DNA from: an uncultured Eubacterium sp.
GTDB taxonomy: Bacteria; Bacillota; Clostridia; Lachnospirales; Lachnospiraceae
Length of the DNA stretch: 52,029 nt
Reading direction: 5' to 3'
Assembly (NCBI GenBank): GCA_949959185.1
Contig: CATLIX010000021.1
Coordinates: 1-52,029 of the forward strand
The notes under the pieces were generated by a model that had not been told where the DNA came from, searched no databases, and worked only from the letters and a program-made list of their open reading frames with translations. Below, piece by piece: positions 1-50,130 of the stretch. Position 1 is the first letter of the stretch. Each line of letters opens with the position of its first letter. The position numbers and the translations under genes were made by a program.

Positions 1-183
1 ACCGTGTTACTGAGAAGTGCTAAAGTATATAGATTTCCTATAAGAGAAAGCCCACCGGGCGGGATGCGCAGCTCGCGGAGAGGAAATATATTGCCAGGCA
101 ATCCGCTCGCGCGCAGCAAACCCTCCAGGTCCCTCAAGAATGAGGGATTCAGGGAGTTGAAGCGGACCTGACCGCTTTGTTCC
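1..183 (+). repeat. Composite interspersed element, copy A (left end cut by window)
   Basis: The copy starts inside the left palindrome; its right arm ends about 46. It continues into a nested double hairpin: outer stem GCGGA (75-79) with TCCGC (102-106), inner stem TTGCC/GGCAA (91-101), and a conserved unpaired AGGAAATATA between. The last module has CAGGTCC (126-132) pairing with GGACCTG (164-170) around a CCCTCA/TGAGGG hairpin. The element ends about 20 bp before the CapA-like gene, in the same orientation. It closely matches copy C at 29926 and partly matches the copies at 12445, 33022 and 49627. Confidence 0.85.
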
Positions 184-12444: not shown

Positions 12445-12590
12445 TCTTACAGGAAAGACCTTGTCACACTAACGTGTGAAAGTGTCTTCCTGTAAGATAA
12501 AACCATTATGCACAGCTCGCGGAGCGGAAATTTATTGCTGCGCAATCCGCTCGCGCGCGAAGAATGTGCTTGCGCATTCTTATTTATGGA
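12445..12590 (+). repeat. Composite interspersed element, copy B
   Basis: The palindrome at 12445-12497 has arms TCTTACAGGAAAGAC and GTCTTCCTGTAAGA with an inner CACAC/GTGTG stem. The nested double hairpin follows: GCGGA (12519-12523) with TCCGC (12546-12550), enclosing TTGC/GCAA (12535-12545), with GCGGAAATTTA-type sequence on the 5' side. The copy ends in a hairpin of AGAATGTGC with GCGCATTCT and a short T-rich tail, 14 bases or fewer before the rnr start. It abuts the secG terminator on its left. Confidence 0.85.
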
Positions 12591-19394: not shown

Positions 19395-22300
19395 ATGCAG
19401 GTAATTGGAATTACAGGCGGAGTAGGAGCAGGAAAATCTGCTATCCTGGAATATTTGGAGCAGAATTACAGAGTAAAAAATCTGATTGCGGACAAAATTG
19501 CCCGGATGATGATGGAACCGGGAAGCGAATGCTACCGGAAGCTGCTGAAATTTCTTCCGGTGGAAGTGTATAACGAAGATGAGAGTATCAACCGTTCTGC
19601 GCTGGCGGCGGCAATCTTTACTTCGGAAGATTTGCGGAAACGTGTGAACGACGTCATGCATCCGGTGGTGAAGGAATACATTCTGAACCAGATTGAAGAA
19701 CAGAAGCGCATGGGCCTTCTGGACTTTGTGATAATAGAAGCAGCCCTTCTGATTGAAGACAATTACGATGAAATCTGTGATGAACTCTGGTATGTGCGTA
19801 CTTCGGAGGAAGTCAGGAAAAAACGTCTGATGCGTTCCAGAGGCTACACGGAAGAACAGGTGGAGCAGATGTTCGTAAGCCAGCTTTCTGATGAGGAATA
19901 CCGGAAGAACTGTCAGGTCATCATTGAAAATAACGGAACCAGAGAAGAGACCTTTTATCAGGTAGCTCAGGCCATTAAGGAAAAAGGAGAGTTAAATAAG
20001 ATGGAGCAGCAGTTAGACGGAGTTCCACTGGTATTTGGACTGGATATCGGAACCAGAAATGTGGTAGGTACCGTAGGCTATAAAGAAGACGATGATTTTT
20101 ATGTAGTTGCCCAGTATGTAAAGGAACATGCCACACGTTCCATGCTGGACGGCCAGATTCATGATATTGGCCGGGTAGGGCGTACCATAAATGCTGTAAA
20201 AAAAGAACTGGAAGAGCAGAGCCGCCTTTCTTTGAACGAAGTATGTATTGCGGCGGCGGGACGCGTGCTGAAAACCGTTACCACCACAGTGGAATACAGC
20301 TTTCCGGAAGAAATTGTGGTGACCGGAGAAGATGTGCATACCCTGGATTTACTGGGAATTGAGAAGGCTCAGCAGATTTTAAATGAAAATAACGATACCA
20401 ATTTTAAATTCTACTGTGTGGGATATTCCGTGGTAAAATATTACCTGAACGGAGATATTTTTTCCAATCTGGAAGGCCATAAGGCAGAAGTTATCAGTGC
20501 GGATATTATTGTAACCTTCCTGCCGGAAGACGTGGTGGACGGTCTGTATTCAGCCGTAGGCCTTGCAGGTCTGAAGGTTGCCAGCCTTACGCTGGAGCCT
20601 ATCGCCGCCATCAATGTGGCCATTCCGGAAACGTTCCGGATGCTGAATATTGCTCTGGTAGACGTGGGAGCGGGAACCAGCGATATTTCCGTTACCAGGG
20701 ACGGAAGCATCATTGCCTACGGCATGATACCCTGTGCCGGAGATGAGATTACGGAACTGCTGGTACAGCATTATCTGGTAGACTTTAAGACAGCGGAGCA
20801 CATCAAGCTCAGCTCCACCACGGAAAAAGAAATTGAATATCAGGATATCATGATGATTAAACATACGGTGACTGCAGAGGAAGTATGGGATCTGATTCAG
20901 CCTCTGGTGTATAATCTGACAGAAGATATTGCATCTAAAATCAAAGAACTCAACGGCGGGGAAACCGTAAGCGCCACCTTTGTGGTAGGCGGCGGCGGAA
21001 AAGTCCATGGATTCGTGGAGCACCTGGCGGAAGAACTGGAACTGCCTCTGGAGCGCGTGGCGCTGAGAGGGGAAGAAGTGCTGCAGGAAATCCATTTTGA
21101 ACAGCCGGAAATTAAAAAGGATCCACTGCTGGTAACGCCCATCGGTATCTGTATCAGTTATTATGACCAGAAAAATAATTTTGTATTTGTACGGTTTAAC
21201 GGGGAACGGATTAAATTATATGACAATAATAAACTGACCATTGTGGACGCCGCTTTGCGGGCGGGCTTCCCCAACGAGCAGCTGTTCCCCCGAAGAGGAA
21301 AGGAAATTAATTTCTATGTCAACGGGAAAAAGCGGATTGTCCGCGGGGAGCCCGGAGAGTCCGCGGTAGTCCGTGTCAATGGCAGAGTGACCAGTATCAA
21401 TGCTACACTGGAGCCCAACAGCGATATTGTAATTGAGCCTTCCACCATGGGAGAGGCGGCAGTCTGCCGTCTGGAAGAACTGGAGGAATACGGAAGAGTA
21501 GTCATTACCTTTGAAGTAAACGGAAGGATGATTACCTGTCCCAGATTTGCAGAAGTAAACGGCAGTCTGGAGCCGCCTTATTATGAAATACAGGAAAACG
21601 ACTGGGTGGAAATGCGCAATTTCTATACAGTAGCCCAGATTATGGAATTTATGGACGTGGAAATTGATATGGACAGCGAAATTCTGGTAAATAATAAGCC
21701 GGCAGATCTGGACACGCTGGTTTATGAGAATTTTTCTGTGGAATGGGATGTGATTTCTTATCGGACGCCCCCGTCAGAGATTGAGAATGTGTATAAACGT
21801 TCCGAACCGCTGGTAATGGAAGAAGGAGTACTTTCCGAACCGGAAGTTCCGGAACCGGTGATAGCAGAAGACTCTCAGTCTGAGCCGGAGAAAGCGGAAA
21901 CAGCAGAGGCAAAAGCCCGGCCGGAATCGGTGAAAAGCGAAGTATCTAAAGCAGAATCCCGGCCGGAATCAGTAAAAAGCGAAACGCCCAAAGCAGAACC
22001 ACAGCCGGAGCCGGTGAAAAGTGAAGCGCCCAAAGCAGAACCACAGCCGGAGCCGGTGAAAGCGGAAGCGCCTGAAGCAGAATCCCGGCCGGAACCGGTA
22101 AAACAGGAAGAATCAGCAATTCAGACGGAGCCTGTAAAGCCGGAGGATTCAGAATTTCAGCCGGAGGAGCGGGAACTGACCCAGGAAGAACTGGAAGAAA
22201 AGTTTCTCCAGTCTCAGCAGACGGTGGAAAGTGATATCCGGCCCACTATAATAAAGAAACCGGAAGTGAAGACGGTAAAGGCGAAACCGGAAACGGTTTC

Positions 22301-22502
22301 CCTGCAGGTAATTGTAAACAATGCGGCAGTTACTCTCACCGGCAAATCGTCCTATGTATTTGTGGATGTATTTGACGCAATATCCTTTGATTTGAACGCA
22401 GGAAACGGAAGGGCCATTGTTACCAGACTGAATAATGCAATGCCTTCTTATACCGCTCCTCTCCAGTATGGAGATGTGATTGAAATTTACTGGGAGGATT
22501 AG
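19395..22502 (+). CDS. coaE: Fusion of dephospho-CoA kinase (CoaE) with an FtsA-like actin-fold protein
   Basis: Residues 1-201 form a complete CoaE kinase, which phosphorylates dephospho-CoA to CoA, with P-loop GITGGVGAGKS and later YTEEQVEQM. From residue 202 the frame continues without a stop into an FtsA-family protein with actin-fold motifs GLDIGTRNVVG, VDVGAGTSDIS and VVGGGGKVHG. Two or three beta-grasp-like segments and a Pro/Glu/Lys linker follow. The linker has four 14-residue repeats (about 843-898), and the last about 65 residues form another beta-grasp-like domain. An internal ATG at 19998 has GGAGAG nine bases upstream, so the FtsA-like part could also be made alone. Usual relatives appear to be separate genes; the fusion is either real or a lost stop codon. 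The FtsA-like role is unknown. Confidence 0.88.
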   Translation: MQVIGITGGVGAGKSAILEYLEQNYRVKNLIADKIARMMMEPGSECYRKLLKFLPVEVYNEDESINRSALAAAIFTSEDLRKRVNDVMHPVVKEYILNQIEEQKRMGLLDFVIIEAALLIEDNYDEICDELWYVRTSEEVRKKRLMRSRGYTEEQVEQMFVSQLSDEEYRKNCQVIIENNGTREETFYQVAQAIKEKGELNKMEQQLDGVPLVFGLDIGTRNVVGTVGYKEDDDFYVVAQYVKEHATRSMLDGQIHDIGRVGRTINAVKKELEEQSRLSLNEVCIAAAGRVLKTVTTTVEYSFPEEIVVTGEDVHTLDLLGIEKAQQILNENNDTNFKFYCVGYSVVKYYLNGDIFSNLEGHKAEVISADIIVTFLPEDVVDGLYSAVGLAGLKVASLTLEPIAAINVAIPETFRMLNIALVDVGAGTSDISVTRDGSIIAYGMIPCAGDEITELLVQHYLVDFKTAEHIKLSSTTEKEIEYQDIMMIKHTVTAEEVWDLIQPLVYNLTEDIASKIKELNGGETVSATFVVGGGGKVHGFVEHLAEELELPLERVALRGEEVLQEIHFEQPEIKKDPLLVTPIGICISYYDQKNNFVFVRFNGERIKLYDNNKLTIVDAALRAGFPNEQLFPRRGKEINFYVNGKKRIVRGEPGESAVVRVNGRVTSINATLEPNSDIVIEPSTMGEAAVCRLEELEEYGRVVITFEVNGRMITCPRFAEVNGSLEPPYYEIQENDWVEMRNFYTVAQIMEFMDVEIDMDSEILVNNKPADLDTLVYENFSVEWDVISYRTPPSEIENVYKRSEPLVMEEGVLSEPEVPEPVIAEDSQSEPEKAETAEAKARPESVKSEVSKAESRPESVKSETPKAEPQPEPVKSEAPKAEPQPEPVKAEAPEAESRPEPVKQEESAIQTEPVKPEDSEFQPEERELTQEELEEKFLQSQQTVESDIRPTIIKKPEVKTVKAKPETVSLQVIVNNAAVTLTGKSSYVFVDVFDAISFDLNAGNGRAIVTRLNNAMPSYTAPLQYGDVIEIYWED
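21921..22102 (+). repeat. Tandem 42-bp coding repeat in the FtsA-like linker
   Basis: Four 42-bp units start at 21921, 21963, 22005 and 22047, with a partial fifth at 22089. Each encodes a 14-residue unit of the form PE(S/P)VKSE.KAE... . Units differ by a few substitutions, and copy number could vary between strains. Confidence 0.85.
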
Positions 22503-25017: not shown

Positions 25018-25070
25018 ATTGAAAGATATGATACGCCGTATAAATAATGAAAGCACCGGAGGTGGAATCT

Positions 25071-26744
25071 TTGAACGAGAGAGAAGATTACCTGGACAGA
25101 TTATTGCGGGGAGTGGAAGACAGTCCGGAAGATATTCAGGAAACAGAGGAAGATTTTTTAGAAGAATTTAATAATTCCTTTTCAGAAGATGATGAAAATG
25201 ATTTTCTGATGGAGTTTGAGAAAAGCAGGAATAAACCGGAAGAAGATTTCGCGGAAGACAGAAGTATGGATTTCGATATGGAAGATATCGACCATATTGT
25301 GAACAATGTAAAACAGAACACCATGGATGAGCCGGAGGAAATGGATGCCTTTGGAGCTCCTGATGATTTCGGGAACCTGGATACGTTCGGGGATTTTGAC
25401 ACTTTCGGAGGAGAAGATGAGCCGGGAGAAGTGGATACCCTGGGAGAAGGAGATCTGCCCATCGAGGAATCTCTGCAGAATTTTTCAGATGAGGAATCGA
25501 ACCTGGACGAAATCAGTACGGATTTTGGCGACGGAGAACAGGATTTCATGATTAACACCATGGATGAAGGCAATGACGAATCCTTTGGTATGGAACCGCT
25601 GGATGATATGATTCCTGAAATGGAAGAAGATATGGCGGCAGCGCCGGATAATGAAGCTCCAAAGGAGGGTGACATGCCCATGGATGAAATGGAATCCATG
25701 GCTATGGAACTGTCCAGAGAAATTGACGGGCTGGGACTGGACGAGATGGAAGAGGGCAGGGAAGCCGGCAAAAAGAACACAGAAGAGCAGGAAAAACTGG
25801 ACGAAGTTCTGTCGGAAGAGGACGAAGAGCCTGGAAAAGGCAAAAAGAAGAAAAAAGGGAAAAAGGGAGAAAAAGGAGAAAAGGGCGATGAAAAGCCCGG
25901 ATTCTTTAAACGACTGTCCCTGGCCTTATTTGGCGAAGAGGAAGTGGAAGTAAGCGAAGAGGATAAAATTCCGGAAATCGGAGATATTGAGAATATTTCG
26001 GATGAAAATATTGATATTCTGAGGGAACTGGAAAGGAAAAAAGGAAAGCAGGAAGATGACGCCAAAGCCCGGAAGGCTCAGAAGAAAAAAGAAAAGGCAG
26101 AGAAGAAAGCACAGAAAAAGAAAGAAAGAGAAGAGAAGAAAGCTCAGAAGGCCCAGGAAAAAGCAGCGAAGCCGAAGAAAGAAAAGAAGCCGAAAGAGCC
26201 AAAAACAGTAATAAAAACCAAACCGCTGCCGAAGAAACCGGTATTCCTCATCATGCTGGTGGGCGTTTCGCTGGTAATTCTGATTAATCTGATTACCACC
26301 CAGGTAGGTTATACCATAGATGTGGCAAATGCGAAGAAGTATTATGAGCAGGGGGACTATGTGGAAGCATATACCTGTTTTACCCAGGGAGCCAAGGTAA
26401 AAGCAGCGGACGAAGAACTGTATAATAAGGCAAAATATACTGCTTATGTACAGCAGCAGTTCCGGAATTATTATATGTACCGGGAACAGAATATGCATCC
26501 GGAAGCACTGAACGCGCTGATTTGCGGTCTGGGCAGATATGATAAAAATGTTTCTGATGCGGTCAAGGCCGGAGCCACAGCAGAATACGATAAAATGCTG
26601 ATGGATCTGGAGAAGCTGTTGTCTGAAAATTACAGTATGACACTGGAACAGGCCAGAACGCTGTATGCAATACATGAAAAGGAAGATTACACTTATGCTT
26701 TGTACGATGTGATTGACAGCCTGGGCCTTTCAGAGTCCGAGTAA
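25071..26744 (+). CDS. Bitopic membrane protein with a long acidic and lysine-rich cytoplasmic region
   Basis: I do not recognise the family. The 557-residue protein has four parts. Residues 1-230 are strongly acidic, with repeated Asp/Glu-Phe-Gly patches such as DTFGDFDTFGGEDE. Residues 258-385 are lysine-rich with alternating charge, probably a long single helix or coiled coil. One membrane segment follows at about 390-412, then a C-terminal helical region with a TPR-like pair (YYEQGDYVEAYTCFTQGAK). The charged N terminus should be cytoplasmic and the TPR-like part outside. TTG 25071 was chosen because GGAGGTGG lies five bases upstream; ATG 25047 lacks such a site. It may be cotranscribed with hisH, 17 bases downstream. 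Confidence 0.75.
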   Translation: MNEREDYLDRLLRGVEDSPEDIQETEEDFLEEFNNSFSEDDENDFLMEFEKSRNKPEEDFAEDRSMDFDMEDIDHIVNNVKQNTMDEPEEMDAFGAPDDFGNLDTFGDFDTFGGEDEPGEVDTLGEGDLPIEESLQNFSDEESNLDEISTDFGDGEQDFMINTMDEGNDESFGMEPLDDMIPEMEEDMAAAPDNEAPKEGDMPMDEMESMAMELSREIDGLGLDEMEEGREAGKKNTEEQEKLDEVLSEEDEEPGKGKKKKKGKKGEKGEKGDEKPGFFKRLSLALFGEEEVEVSEEDKIPEIGDIENISDENIDILRELERKKGKQEDDAKARKAQKKKEKAEKKAQKKKEREEKKAQKAQEKAAKPKKEKKPKEPKTVIKTKPLPKKPVFLIMLVGVSLVILINLITTQVGYTIDVANAKKYYEQGDYVEAYTCFTQGAKVKAADEELYNKAKYTAYVQQQFRNYYMYREQNMHPEALNALICGLGRYDKNVSDAVKAGATAEYDKMLMDLEKLLSENYSMTLEQARTLYAIHEKEDYTYALYDVIDSLGLSESE

Positions 26745-29925: not shown

Positions 29926-30140
29926 TCTTACAGGAAATACCATGTTACTGTGAAGTGCTAAAGTATATAGATTTCCTATAAGAGAAAACCCTCCGGGCGG
30001 GATGCGCAGCTCGCGGAGAGGAAATTTATTGCCAGGCAATCCGCTCGCGCGCAGCAAACTGTCCAGGTCCCTCATGATTGAGGGATTCAGGGAGTTGAAG
30101 CGGACCTGTCTGCTTTGTTTTCTTACAGGAAAGACTCAGT
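29926..30140 (+). repeat. Composite interspersed element, copy C (most complete short form)
   Basis: The palindrome (29926-29983) has arms TCTTACAGGAAAT and ATTTCCTATAAGA. The double hairpin follows: GCGGA (30013-30017) with TCCGC (30040-30044), around TTGCC/GGCAA. The third module has CAGGTCC (30064-30070) pairing with GGACCTG (30102-30108). The copy ends in a half palindrome (CTTACAGGAAAGAC at about 30122) that has lost its right arm. It abuts a terminator on the left, and cbiQ starts 27 bases after its end in the same orientation. Confidence 0.88.
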
Positions 30141-32537: not shown

Positions 32538-32654
32538 TTCTGCTTTTACGCATTGTTACCCTGGCCCGGAGGAGAGAAAGAAAAGTTCTGGACATTTTTC
32601 TGCTGCCGTGATATGATTATAAAATACTGAGAGATATTCAGTATCAGAAAATAT

Positions 32655-32845
32655 AATTACGGAAGGTGCCTGCAGGATTGCAGGATAATAGGGAAATGAG
32701 TGTGAATCTCATACGGTCCCGCCACTGTAAAAGCGGAGTTTTCTTTCGCAGACAGCGTATGGTTCAGATACATTGTCAGATACCACTGGGAAACCGGGAA
32801 GGTGAAAGAAAATGCAGAAACTTGAGTCAGAAGACCTGCCTTTTG
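32655..32845 (+). promoter_or_regulatory. Cobalamin (B12) riboswitch
   Basis: The conserved blocks appear in order: GGTGCC (32665), ATAGGGAA (32688), GTGTGAATCTCATACGGTCC, the B12-box-type GCCACTGTAA (32721), GTCAGATACCACTGGGAAACC (split across 32776-32795) and GAGTCAGAAGACCTGCC (32824-32840). This is the class I cobalamin aptamer, which lowers expression of cobalamin and cobalt transport genes when B12 is plentiful. The downstream genes cbiM-cbiN fit exactly. Possible expression-platform stems lie at 32890-32964, and a terminator lies at 32977. A weak TATAAA-like -10 sits at 32618. Confidence 0.93.
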
Positions 32846-32889
32846 TAAGGGAATGCAAATAGTTACGAGAGATAACTGGTTGCAGATTA

Positions 32890-33021: not shown

Positions 33022-33129
33022 TCTTACAGGAAATACTGTTCCACTGTGAAGCACTAAATCATATAGATTTCCTATAAGATAAAAATAGTATGCGCAGTTC
33101 GCAGAGATGAAGTTTATTGTTTCGCAGCT
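33022..33129 (+). repeat. Composite interspersed element, copy D (degenerate)
   Basis: The palindrome (33022-33077) has arms TCTTACAGGAAAT and ATTTCCTATAAGA-type. A degenerate double hairpin follows, with outer stem GCAG (33099-33102) and CTGC (33126-33129) and a weak inner stem. The CAGGTCC module is absent. The copy lies between the riboswitch terminator and cbiM, inside the regulated leader. Confidence 0.75.
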
Positions 33130-33164
33130 GCCTGTTTGTTATTCAGCAGAAAAGGAGAAGGAAT

Positions 33165-43574: not shown

Positions 43575-43643
43575 TTTTCGGACAATGTGAACTGACAGGC
43601 AACGACAGAAACGGAGGCGAAAACCCGGCGTATTTTTAATTTT

Positions 43644-43697
43644 ATCATACAGGAAGACACTTTCACGCTTATGGTGACGGGGTCTTTCCTGTATGAT
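43644..43697 (+). repeat. Interspersed palindrome only, copy E
   Basis: ATCATACAGGAAGAC and GTCTTTCCTGTATGAT form a long stem with an inner imperfect hairpin. It is the subtype seen at 12445, without the double-hairpin tail. It lies between two convergent genes and could act as a bidirectional transcription block, but no T-run follows on either strand. Confidence 0.78.
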
Positions 43698-49224: not shown

Positions 49225-49326
49225 AATTTCAAAAAACTGGTATGCTAATGAGTAAATATGTGTTATACTTATACCAACAACTGGTTGGAAATCCAACCAC
49301 AAAAAAGAGGAGAAGGAGCGGTAATC

Positions 49327-49581
49327 ATGAATAGAGAAAAGATTGATGAACTGTTGAGCACAGTAAAACTGAATGAGCTGTTACACAGACAGGAAGAGGA
49401 AAAGAAGAAATCAAAGGTACTTTGGGTATGCGCCATTGCAGGAGCGGTTGTGGCAGTTGCAGCGATTGCTTATGGTATCTATCGTTTCTTCACACCGGAT
49501 TATCTGGAAGATTTCGAAGATGATTTTGATGAAGATTTCGAAGATGATTTCTTTGATGATGAGGATGAAACAGAAGAATAA
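49327..49581 (+). CDS. Small bitopic membrane protein with an acidic tail
   Basis: The 84-residue protein has a charged N terminus (about 1-30), one membrane helix (about 31-53) and a tail of almost only Asp, Glu and Phe with repeats of the form (E/D)DF(E/D)(E/D). I do not recognise the family. ATG 49327 follows GAGGAGAAGGAGC. The leader contains a perfect TGGTTGG/CCAACCA hairpin (49282-49299). A strong terminator follows, so it forms a single-gene unit. Confidence 0.75.
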   Translation: MNREKIDELLSTVKLNELLHRQEEEKKKSKVLWVCAIAGAVVAVAAIAYGIYRFFTPDYLEDFEDDFDEDFEDDFFDDEDETEE

Positions 49582-49595
49582 GAATCAGATGTCTG

Positions 49596-49624
49596 GACTC
49601 CCGCATGGAATGCGGGAGTCTTTT
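49596..49624 (+). terminator. Rho-independent terminator after the small acidic membrane protein gene
   Basis: GACTCCCGCAT and ATGCGGGAGTC form a perfect 11-bp stem with a GGA loop and four T. Element copy F1 starts two bases later. Confidence 0.88.
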
Positions 49625-49626
49625 CA

Positions 49627-49919
49627 TCTTACAGGAAATACCGTGCTACTGTGAAGTACTAAAATGTATAGATTTCCTATAAGATAAGGCCCTGCGGGCG
49701 GGATGCGTACTCGCACAGGAGGAAAATATTGCTTCGCAATTGTGCTTAAACGCGATACGTTCAGCATACTGCGTATGCTCTGACACACCGCAAATGGCGC
49801 AGCAAACCGTCCAGGTCTACGCTCCGCTTCGGTCCACGCTAAACGGACATCCACAGGATGTCCGGCGCCCCTCATGATTGAGGGATTCAGGGAGCCCCTG
49901 CGGACCTGTCCGCTTTTTT
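49627..49919 (+). repeat. Composite interspersed element, copy F1 (expanded)
   Basis: The palindrome (49627-49684) has the TCTTACAGGAAAT arm. The double hairpin has outer stem GCACA (49713-49717) with TGTGC (49741-49745) and inner TTGC/GCAA (49729-49739). Extra hairpins AGCATAC/GTATGCT and GGACATCC/GGATGTCC are inserted relative to copies A and C. The third module has CAGGTC (49812-49817) and ends in GCGGAC/GTCCGC with six T (49900-49919), a terminator-like hairpin. A second palindrome starts directly after that T-run. Confidence 0.85.
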
Positions 49920-49920
49920 C

Positions 49921-50077
49921 TCTTACAGGAAATACCTTGTTACGCTAAAGCGTGAAAGTGTCTTCCTATAAGAGAAAAACAAAGATGCACACGCAAATGC
50001 AAAGGAAATATGTCGCCAGGGCGACACATTTGCGGCGCAGAATTTCGTAAAGCGAAATTCTTTTTTAAAGTATGGGA
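49921..50077 (+). repeat. Composite interspersed element, copy F2, nested after F1
   Basis: The palindrome (49921-49973) begins immediately after the T-run that ends copy F1. The double hairpin has outer stem CGCAAATG (49992-49999) with CATTTGCG (50027-50034) and inner stem TGTCGCC/GGCGACA, with AAAGGAAATA between them on the 5' side. It ends with GAATTTCG/CGAAATTC followed by T6. rlmD starts about 54 bases later in the same orientation. No protein-coding signal is seen in 49582-50130. Confidence 0.82.
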
Positions 50078-50130
50078 AATTCTGACGTATTTCCTGTATT
50101 TGGAGATTACACACAGAAATGAGGTAAGTT

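Follow-up and report, generated by a model that had tools for sequence, protein, structure and literature searches.

A dispersed mosaic hairpin repeat behind intrinsic terminators in Lachnospiraceae, with a covarying fold apparently under selection on the strand opposite the terminator RNA

Comparison with described repeats and insertion systems

The BOX, RUP and SPRITE sequences of Streptococcus pneumoniae are described, in the excerpts of PMC3049150 at hand, as small MITE-like interspersed repeats that are predicted to fold (BOX being modular), that cluster and insert into one another, with one BOX composite with T-box riboswitches, and with SPRITE terminator-like and near gene 3' ends. The REP and BIME sequences that go with RAYT (Y1) are, according to excerpts of PMC2817692, high-copy extragenic palindromes in mosaic arrays that carry complementary changes and for which mobilisation in trans has been proposed. 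Integron attC sites show little sequence conservation and are recognised by structure, i.e. as a folded bottom-strand hairpin (excerpts of PMC2727003 and PMC6393395), and group IIC introns insert at intrinsic terminators (excerpt of PMC4424553).

The repeat considered here lies in a stretch of 52,029 nucleotides from an uncultured Eubacterium sp. (hereafter the window), and it comes closest to the small interspersed structured repeats (BOX/RUP/SPRITE, REP/BIME). With BOX, RUP and SPRITE, as far as the excerpts describe them, it shares being small, foldable, modular, clustering and associated with T-boxes and terminators; it differs from that description in lying directly behind existing terminators, in being kept in 56 of 298 sampled genera of the family, and in folding better on the strand opposite the terminator RNA. 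With REP/BIME, as excerpted, it shares high copy number, mosaic arrays and palindromes kept via complementary changes, but it is a larger composite and several high-copy genomes have no Y1 match. Instead of the GTAG/GTGG head of REP/BIME, rows of its second hairpin (HP2) start with GCRCA, while the first (HP1) lies in or adjoins a T-run (by eye). The repeat fails both REP/BIME features that were tested (a Y1 transposase in the genome and a GT(A/G)G head). The likeness to attC, within what the excerpts cover, is the preference for a folded bottom strand, which is here computed only (HP2, 37 of 40 genomes), but no gene cassettes were noticed. Group IIC introns, by the excerpt, share the location at intrinsic terminators, but there is neither an intron RNA match nor tracking by a maturase, and the element has its own terminator-like 3' end.

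Rfam at gathering scores returned only a cobalamin riboswitch for the window, and when five loci were searched permissively, the six matches were all far below the gathering scores of their families. No description of this repeat was found in the open-licence PMC papers searched. The excerpt of PMC8040213 mentions thousands of gut candidates tabulated in supplements, among which the HP2 motif may be present.

Anatomy, spread and position of the element

The original prediction described a nested double hairpin, with stems that differ between copies while still pairing. This double hairpin is indeed found in the sequence, where it forms one module, HP2, of a mosaic repeat with dispersed copies. 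Read by eye along the host gene, the order of parts is an intrinsic terminator with its T-run, then HP1 (a long palindrome whose stem mostly extends from within the T-run to an A-run), a short linker that often carries a small hairpin, HP2 (starting with GCRC), and HP3 (a terminator-like hairpin, often with a T-rich stretch on its 3' side). The features of the window are collected in Table 1; the labels beginning with G denote genomes (G000 being the window's own, of 3.4 Mb in 114 contigs, and the others those of relatives) and those beginning with L denote loci.

Table 1. Parts of the repeat in the window and the host terminator in front of array F
Feature	Position	Strand	Remark
Host intrinsic terminator of ORF 49258-49581	49595..49624	+	terminator-like match, 12 pairs, 7 G-C
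F1 HP1 (type b), palindrome TCTTACAGGAAAT...ATTTCCTATAAGA	49627..49684	+	1 of 165 copies distinct by exact sequence (own genome and close relatives)
F1 small hairpin GCCC-TGC-GGGC between HP1 and HP2	49689..49699	+	read in sequence
F1 HP2 (type II), stems GCACA/TGTGC and TTGC/GCAA	49705..49753	+	R1 match 49713-49746, 31 bits
F1 variable inserted modules (ACGCGATACG.., CCAGGTC..GGACCTG)	49754..49899	+	modules recur in other copies
F1 HP3, terminator-like hairpin GCGGACCTGTCCGC and T-run	49900..49919	+	second unit begins directly after
F2 HP1 (type a)	49921..49973	+	
F2 HP2 (type III), CGCAAATG/CATTTGCG and TGTCGCC/GGCGACA	49987..50038	+	R1 match, 55 bits, E 6.4e-10
F2 HP3, terminator-like hairpin AGAATTTCG..CGAAATTCT and T-run	50039..50067	+	
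Short HP1-like palindrome GTATGGGAAATTC..GTATTTCCTGTAT 3' of last T-run	50071..50101	+	by eye
Copy A, cut by window edge; HP2 66-114	1..181	+	
Copy B: HP1 12445-12497, HP2 12510-12558, then HP3	12445..12558	+	
Copy C: HP1 29926-29983, HP2 30004-30052, module and HP3	29926..30122	+	
Copy D: HP1 33022-33079 and decayed HP2	33022..33131	+	behind terminator 3' of cobalamin riboswitch
Copy E: HP1 (type a)	about 43643..43696	-	no HP2 found

The predicted outer stems are in place in copy A (GCGGA 75-79 / TCCGC 102-106), in copies B and C, in F1 (GCACA 49713-49717 / TGTGC 49741-49745) and in F2 (49992-49999 / 50027-50034); a GCGT/ACGC outer stem of HP2 was read by eye in F1, and on the minus strand of F2 an outer GCGC..GTGC closes too. 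For copy D the predicted GCAG/CTGC stem exists but is decayed, and it lies at 33101-33104 / 33128-33131, about 2 bases off the predicted 33099-33129. The strand between the two 5' arms, which had been said to stay nearly constant, is kept as a purine-rich stretch of broadly AAGRGGWAWWW (by eye). A covariance model made from relatives recovers copies A, B, C, F1 and F2 and misses copy D at E <= 0.5. The HP1 of copy E on the minus strand and the placement of the copies behind terminators had been overlooked.

Array F (49627-50077) consists of two units in tandem followed by a short palindrome, and starts directly 3' of the T-run of the host terminator (short HP1 forms also occupy orthologous sites in G024). 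The ORF that this terminator closes encodes a small protein that ends in an Asp-, Glu- and Phe-rich run (G009, G021, G003 and G024 show similar ends), and the large ORF upstream of it looks, by eye, like a UvrD-type helicase. By exact sequence, 165 distinct copies of HP1 were collected from the own genome and close relatives. Among these, 31 lie directly after an element-type 3' terminator and 7 carry hairpins inserted in the internal loop of HP2 (both by motif test). A further HP2-like type, starting with TCGCACTGCGGCGG, occurs in 11 of the 165 copies by motif test and lies outside the model (L098:441, L107:4183 and L110:2459). In other genera the sequence of the HP1 stems often varies between copies with complementarity kept, and the small hairpin pairs in variants that include CGC/GCG, ACCC/GGGT, GGCA/TGCC and GCAC/GTGC. 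Among the 72 cross-genus copies, HP1 was not called in 13 and the small hairpin was not found in 12; in L285, L289, L291 and L295 the T-run is followed directly by HP2.

With a 460-base query, at least 71 BLAST pieces are present in G000 (40 of 166 candidates scored), and sequence was taken from 38 loci outside the window. As the pieces are shared in differing combinations, the repeat is a mosaic. A 201-base query matches 26 of the 28 genomes of the genus (own included) and 2 of 33 others, and the exact 23-base HP1 pattern is found, among the matches listed, in Lachnospiraceae bacterium A2, 3-1 and X68, in Eubacterium sp. 14-2 and in several metagenome bins. The genome search with a covariance model that the original prediction called for was run with an HP2 model (R1), which matched 15 of 19 genomes, with no match in four genomes of other families; the number of matches was 48 in G000, 82 in G009, 74 in G014 and 45 in G024. 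In other genera of the family, 6 of 9 genomes were matched, G030 with 57 matches, and in a sample of the family R1 matched 57 of 299 genomes, i.e. 56 of 298 genera (stricter filters, 20 candidates scored per genome). Neither the phage collection nor the plasmid collection held a match to 49621-50130.

The position behind terminators was assessed for the 163 of 165 HP1 copies with enough flank, by asking for a strict hairpin and T-run ending directly before HP1. Such a structure precedes HP1 in 120 of 163 copies (24 of 36 in the own genome and 96 of 127 in relatives), compared to 4.6% and 4.8% in shuffled controls, 27% and 25% in shuffles that left the T-run intact, and 4 of 148 control stretches taken downstream. 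Five or more T's are present within the last 8 bases before HP1 in 154 of 163 copies, and several of the copies that fail the strict test have, by eye, terminators with longer loops. In other genera, 48 of 71 copies pass the hairpin and T-run test (shuffled mean 6.6), and the HP1 stem starts in a T-rich stretch in 57 of the 59 copies with an HP1.

Attenuator terminators are also used. According to Rfam, a T-box leader lies directly upstream of the element in 5 of 40 cross-genus loci, and among 20 of the 38 loci of the own genome a T-box precedes L021 and an FMN riboswitch precedes L038. In the window, the cobalamin riboswitch at 32647-32857 (RF00174, 95 bits) precedes copy D, and since it is the terminator 3' of this riboswitch that carries the copy, the element sits between the riboswitch and the gene.

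Covariation of HP2 and the strand that carries the fold

A pattern gave HP2 in 91 of the 165 copies, 69 of them distinct, and 67 of these were aligned with MAFFT (A1; 2 long rows dropped). As A1 misregistered class I (AGCTC) by one base on the 3' side, the counts were made on a second MAFFT alignment (A2), with 43 of the 67 rows from the own genome and close relatives and 24 left out. In A2, 97.7% of the 641 pair cells pair, both sides have changed at 10 of 15 pairs (101 cells, where shuffles give 30), and covariation scores 0.426 versus 0.200 when shuffled, with 0 of 500 shuffles as high (the shuffles ignore relatedness). Sliding the partner by 1-3 columns lowers pairing to 17-51%, and RNAalifold recovers both inner stems without guidance.

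Two further alignments were fitted to R1 and so lean toward its structure. In A3 (31 rows from six other genera), 93.5% of the cells pair and both sides have changed at 10 pairs (45 cells versus 10.6 shuffled). In A4 (41 rows, 40 distinct, from 34 further genera), 97.7% pair, both sides have changed at 11 of 15 pairs (48 cells versus 7.6), and 0 of 500 shuffles reach the covariation score, relatedness again being ignored. One of the five measures, that of further pair types, is not above shuffles in A2 (17 versus 19.1), A3 or A4, the shuffles being at least equal in 500, 262 and 482 of 500 cases, respectively. The arms of the stems thus change letters together, by which the folded shape is preserved, and the original prediction of selection on structure is strongly supported, as covariation persists in larger alignments that include rows from 40 other genera. 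A single hairpin is not always exceptional, the z-scores of folding as single-stranded DNA being -0.8 (plus strand) and -1.0 (minus strand) for copy C, -1.8 and -2.1 for copy B, and -3.2 and -3.9 for F2; the covariation is the part that goes beyond chance.

Covariation is usually taken as a sign of functional RNA. In this repeat the covariation is strong across many genera, while mismatch types and fold energies favour the other strand, for which the host terminators a few bases away provide a built-in control. If selection acted on top-strand RNA, G.T mismatches would be expected to exceed A.C mismatches, as they do in the host terminators (G.T 52 and A.C 7 across genera, with 22 of 26 genomes for, 1 against and 3 ties; G.T 130 and A.C 22 in the close-relative set). 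In HP2 the reverse is the case, with 43 A.C versus 11 G.T (A.C 11, 19 and 13, and G.T 6, 4 and 1, in A2, A3 and A4, respectively), although one outer pair supplies 22 of the 43 A.C and zero G.T, leaving 21 versus 11 when that pair is excluded. HP1 contains 48 A.C and 19 G.T across genera (A.C-rich in 17 of 31 genomes, opposite in 4, ties in 10), with a mild bias in the close-relative set (140 and 102), and HP3 has no mismatch bias (G.T 10, A.C 11).

Fold energies give a similar picture for HP2, the bottom strand being better in 37 of 40 genomes and the top strand in 1 with RNA parameters (36 and 1 with DNA parameters), whereas for host terminators the top strand is better in 22 of 26 genomes and the bottom strand in 3. 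For HP1 the bottom strand is better in 21 of 31 genomes and the top strand in 6 (RNA parameters), and for HP3 these numbers are 7 and 10 of 35. In 92 of 114 rows the CTC/TCG internal loop of HP2, which has T.C and C.T on the top strand, amounts to a tandem G.A when the bottom strand is read (of the remaining rows, 14 have two Watson-Crick pairs and 8 have other combinations). Loops of the tandem G.A and GNA kind (GCGAAGC) are exceptionally stable. As R1 describes the top strand by RNA pairing rules, it should not favour a bottom-strand result.

Given the A.C excess in HP2 and the stability of its bottom strand, both reversed in the host terminators, RNA of the given strand is unlikely, and selection on the structure appears to act on the strand opposite that of the host terminator RNA. 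Of the original prediction of a candidate structured RNA, the selected structure is therefore supported and RNA of the plus strand is not; its reasoning had allowed for RNA or DNA structure where its title named RNA, and the evidence shifts it in the direction of DNA or of the antisense strand. For RNA-discovery pipelines this holds a warning, in that such an element could be scored as structured RNA with the strand misassigned.

Turnover, mobility and competing explanations

G024 shares synteny with the window (identity about 85-92%), and its orthologous sites hold a short hairpin only (at C), a relic (at B, by eye), no element-like sequence (at E) or, in the case of A, D and F, elements of another subtype. 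In G009 and G021, which are more distant, the terminator at F is present with no element behind it, and in G003 the terminator at F is weaker (by eye), also with no element behind it. It follows that turnover is faster for element content than for the flanks, and that sites common to the close pair are empty further out. This fits a mobile repeat with hot spots, and recombination between copies is probably also at work, since other hairpins of the kind are present at A, C, D and F of G024 and turnover by recombination would explain part of the picture. As regards the MITE hallmarks of terminal inverted repeats and target-site duplication, HP1 is palindromic between T-run and A-run, but the sites compared in G024, G009, G021 and G003 showed no clean empty site with duplicated bases. 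Neither a clean target duplication nor a same-species empty site was seen.

With moderate confidence, the repeat may be regarded as a non-autonomous mobile DNA repeat of Lachnospiraceae that settles behind terminators and is recognised as a bottom-strand hairpin. The hairpin modules (HP1, often the small hairpin, HP2 and HP3) would settle immediately 3' of the T-run of intrinsic terminators, and as the element itself ends 3' in a further hairpin, often with a T-run, units also stack behind one another. What is conserved would be a hairpin formed by the bottom strand as single-stranded DNA, which a trans-acting recombinase or transposase would bind and cut, and the anatomy suggests that a hairpin plus T-run may serve as both target and right end. 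More tentatively, and rather less probably, this could be a family-wide element that homes to terminators via its folded bottom-strand DNA, i.e. attC-like, structure-recognised recombination without integrons, by an enzyme for which any hairpin plus T-run is a site. If the repeat is mobile, terminators, among them those of T-boxes and riboswitches, would be serving it as safe places to land, and the question raised is which enzyme recognises a hairpin plus T-run.

Three protein families were considered as a general mobiliser and rejected, as none tracks copy number (28, 18 and 18 genomes for Y1, the group II maturase and Y2, respectively). Y1 (RAYT-type, PF01797) was matched in 17 of the 28 genomes of the genus, with no match in G000, G009, G024 and G021. 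The group II maturase (PF08388) is present in G000 and in G026 and G019 (the latter two with 1-2 element copies each), with no match in G009 and G024, and Y2 (PF04986) had no match in G000, G009 and G030. By eye, the 15 largest ORF clusters near copies held element translations and ordinary genes and no recurrent linked protein family, and no recurrent neighbouring recombinase was seen among the ORF clusters.

The alternative that survives best, although doubtful, is that the bottom strand is read as RNA and counters transcription from the right, by termination or as antisense RNA, in which case HP2, the small hairpin and the T-run that complements the A-run of HP1 would together with the host terminator form a two-sided transcription barrier. 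Fold and mismatch asymmetry favour the bottom strand here too, and in many copies the small hairpin comes before a T-run on that strand (by eye), but most copies have no obvious convergent transcript. With a crude longest-ORF call, both neighbours were called in 181 of 237 cases, and where the upstream gene is on the plus strand, the downstream gene is co-directional in 92 of 131 cases and convergent in 39. (In the other 50 of the 181, the upstream ORF was called on the minus strand, a misfit with the host terminator that may be a calling error.) Moreover, a promoter scan of F1-F2 gave a single weak match, on the minus strand within HP1, and the high copy number and fast turnover resemble a mobile repeat.

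It is less probable still that the palindromes are kept by mutation, with quasi-palindrome template switching and recombination between copies changing both arms together. This would suit HP1, the stems of which are long and nearly perfectly complementary despite a sequence that often varies between copies, as well as the swapping of subtypes at orthologous sites. However, the unpaired purine strand of HP2 (about 11 bases) and the mismatch pair (92 of 114 rows) persist where template-switch repair would be expected to erase both, and the fold is kept in 56 of the 298 sampled genera.

Slightly less probable again is a structured RNA of the top strand, as originally predicted, acting as a regulatory 3' UTR or leader element or as a small RNA. 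The strong covariation and the copies behind a T-box, FMN or cobalamin attenuator are what such an RNA would lead one to expect, but mismatch types and fold energies favour the other strand while those of the adjacent host terminators favour the top, Rfam gave no match, and an element behind a terminator would mainly be reached by read-through. Insertion via RNA, with a group IIC intron reverse transcriptase working in trans, proposed because these introns also insert at terminators (a target shared as far as the excerpt of PMC4424553 goes), is very improbable, for although an intron end in L276 (RF00029, L276:25-98 and on) adjoins a cut HP1 as if inserted into the palindrome, maturase genes do not track element copy number and Rfam at gathering found no group II intron RNA in the window or in the elements of 60 loci.

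Apart from these readings, long ORFs begin inside the element at window positions 12476 and 30002 (for example, ATGCGCAGC at 30002 continues into the next gene), so that the element can yield false N-terminal extensions in annotation. At L022, a lone open frame lies between two oppositely oriented copies. Elsewhere in the window, repeats at a 42-base spacing are present at 21866-22145 inside the 1035-aa ORF 19395-22502, and 33-base repeats at 26072-26179 encode, by eye, a Lys/Glu-rich stretch of ORF 25047-26744.
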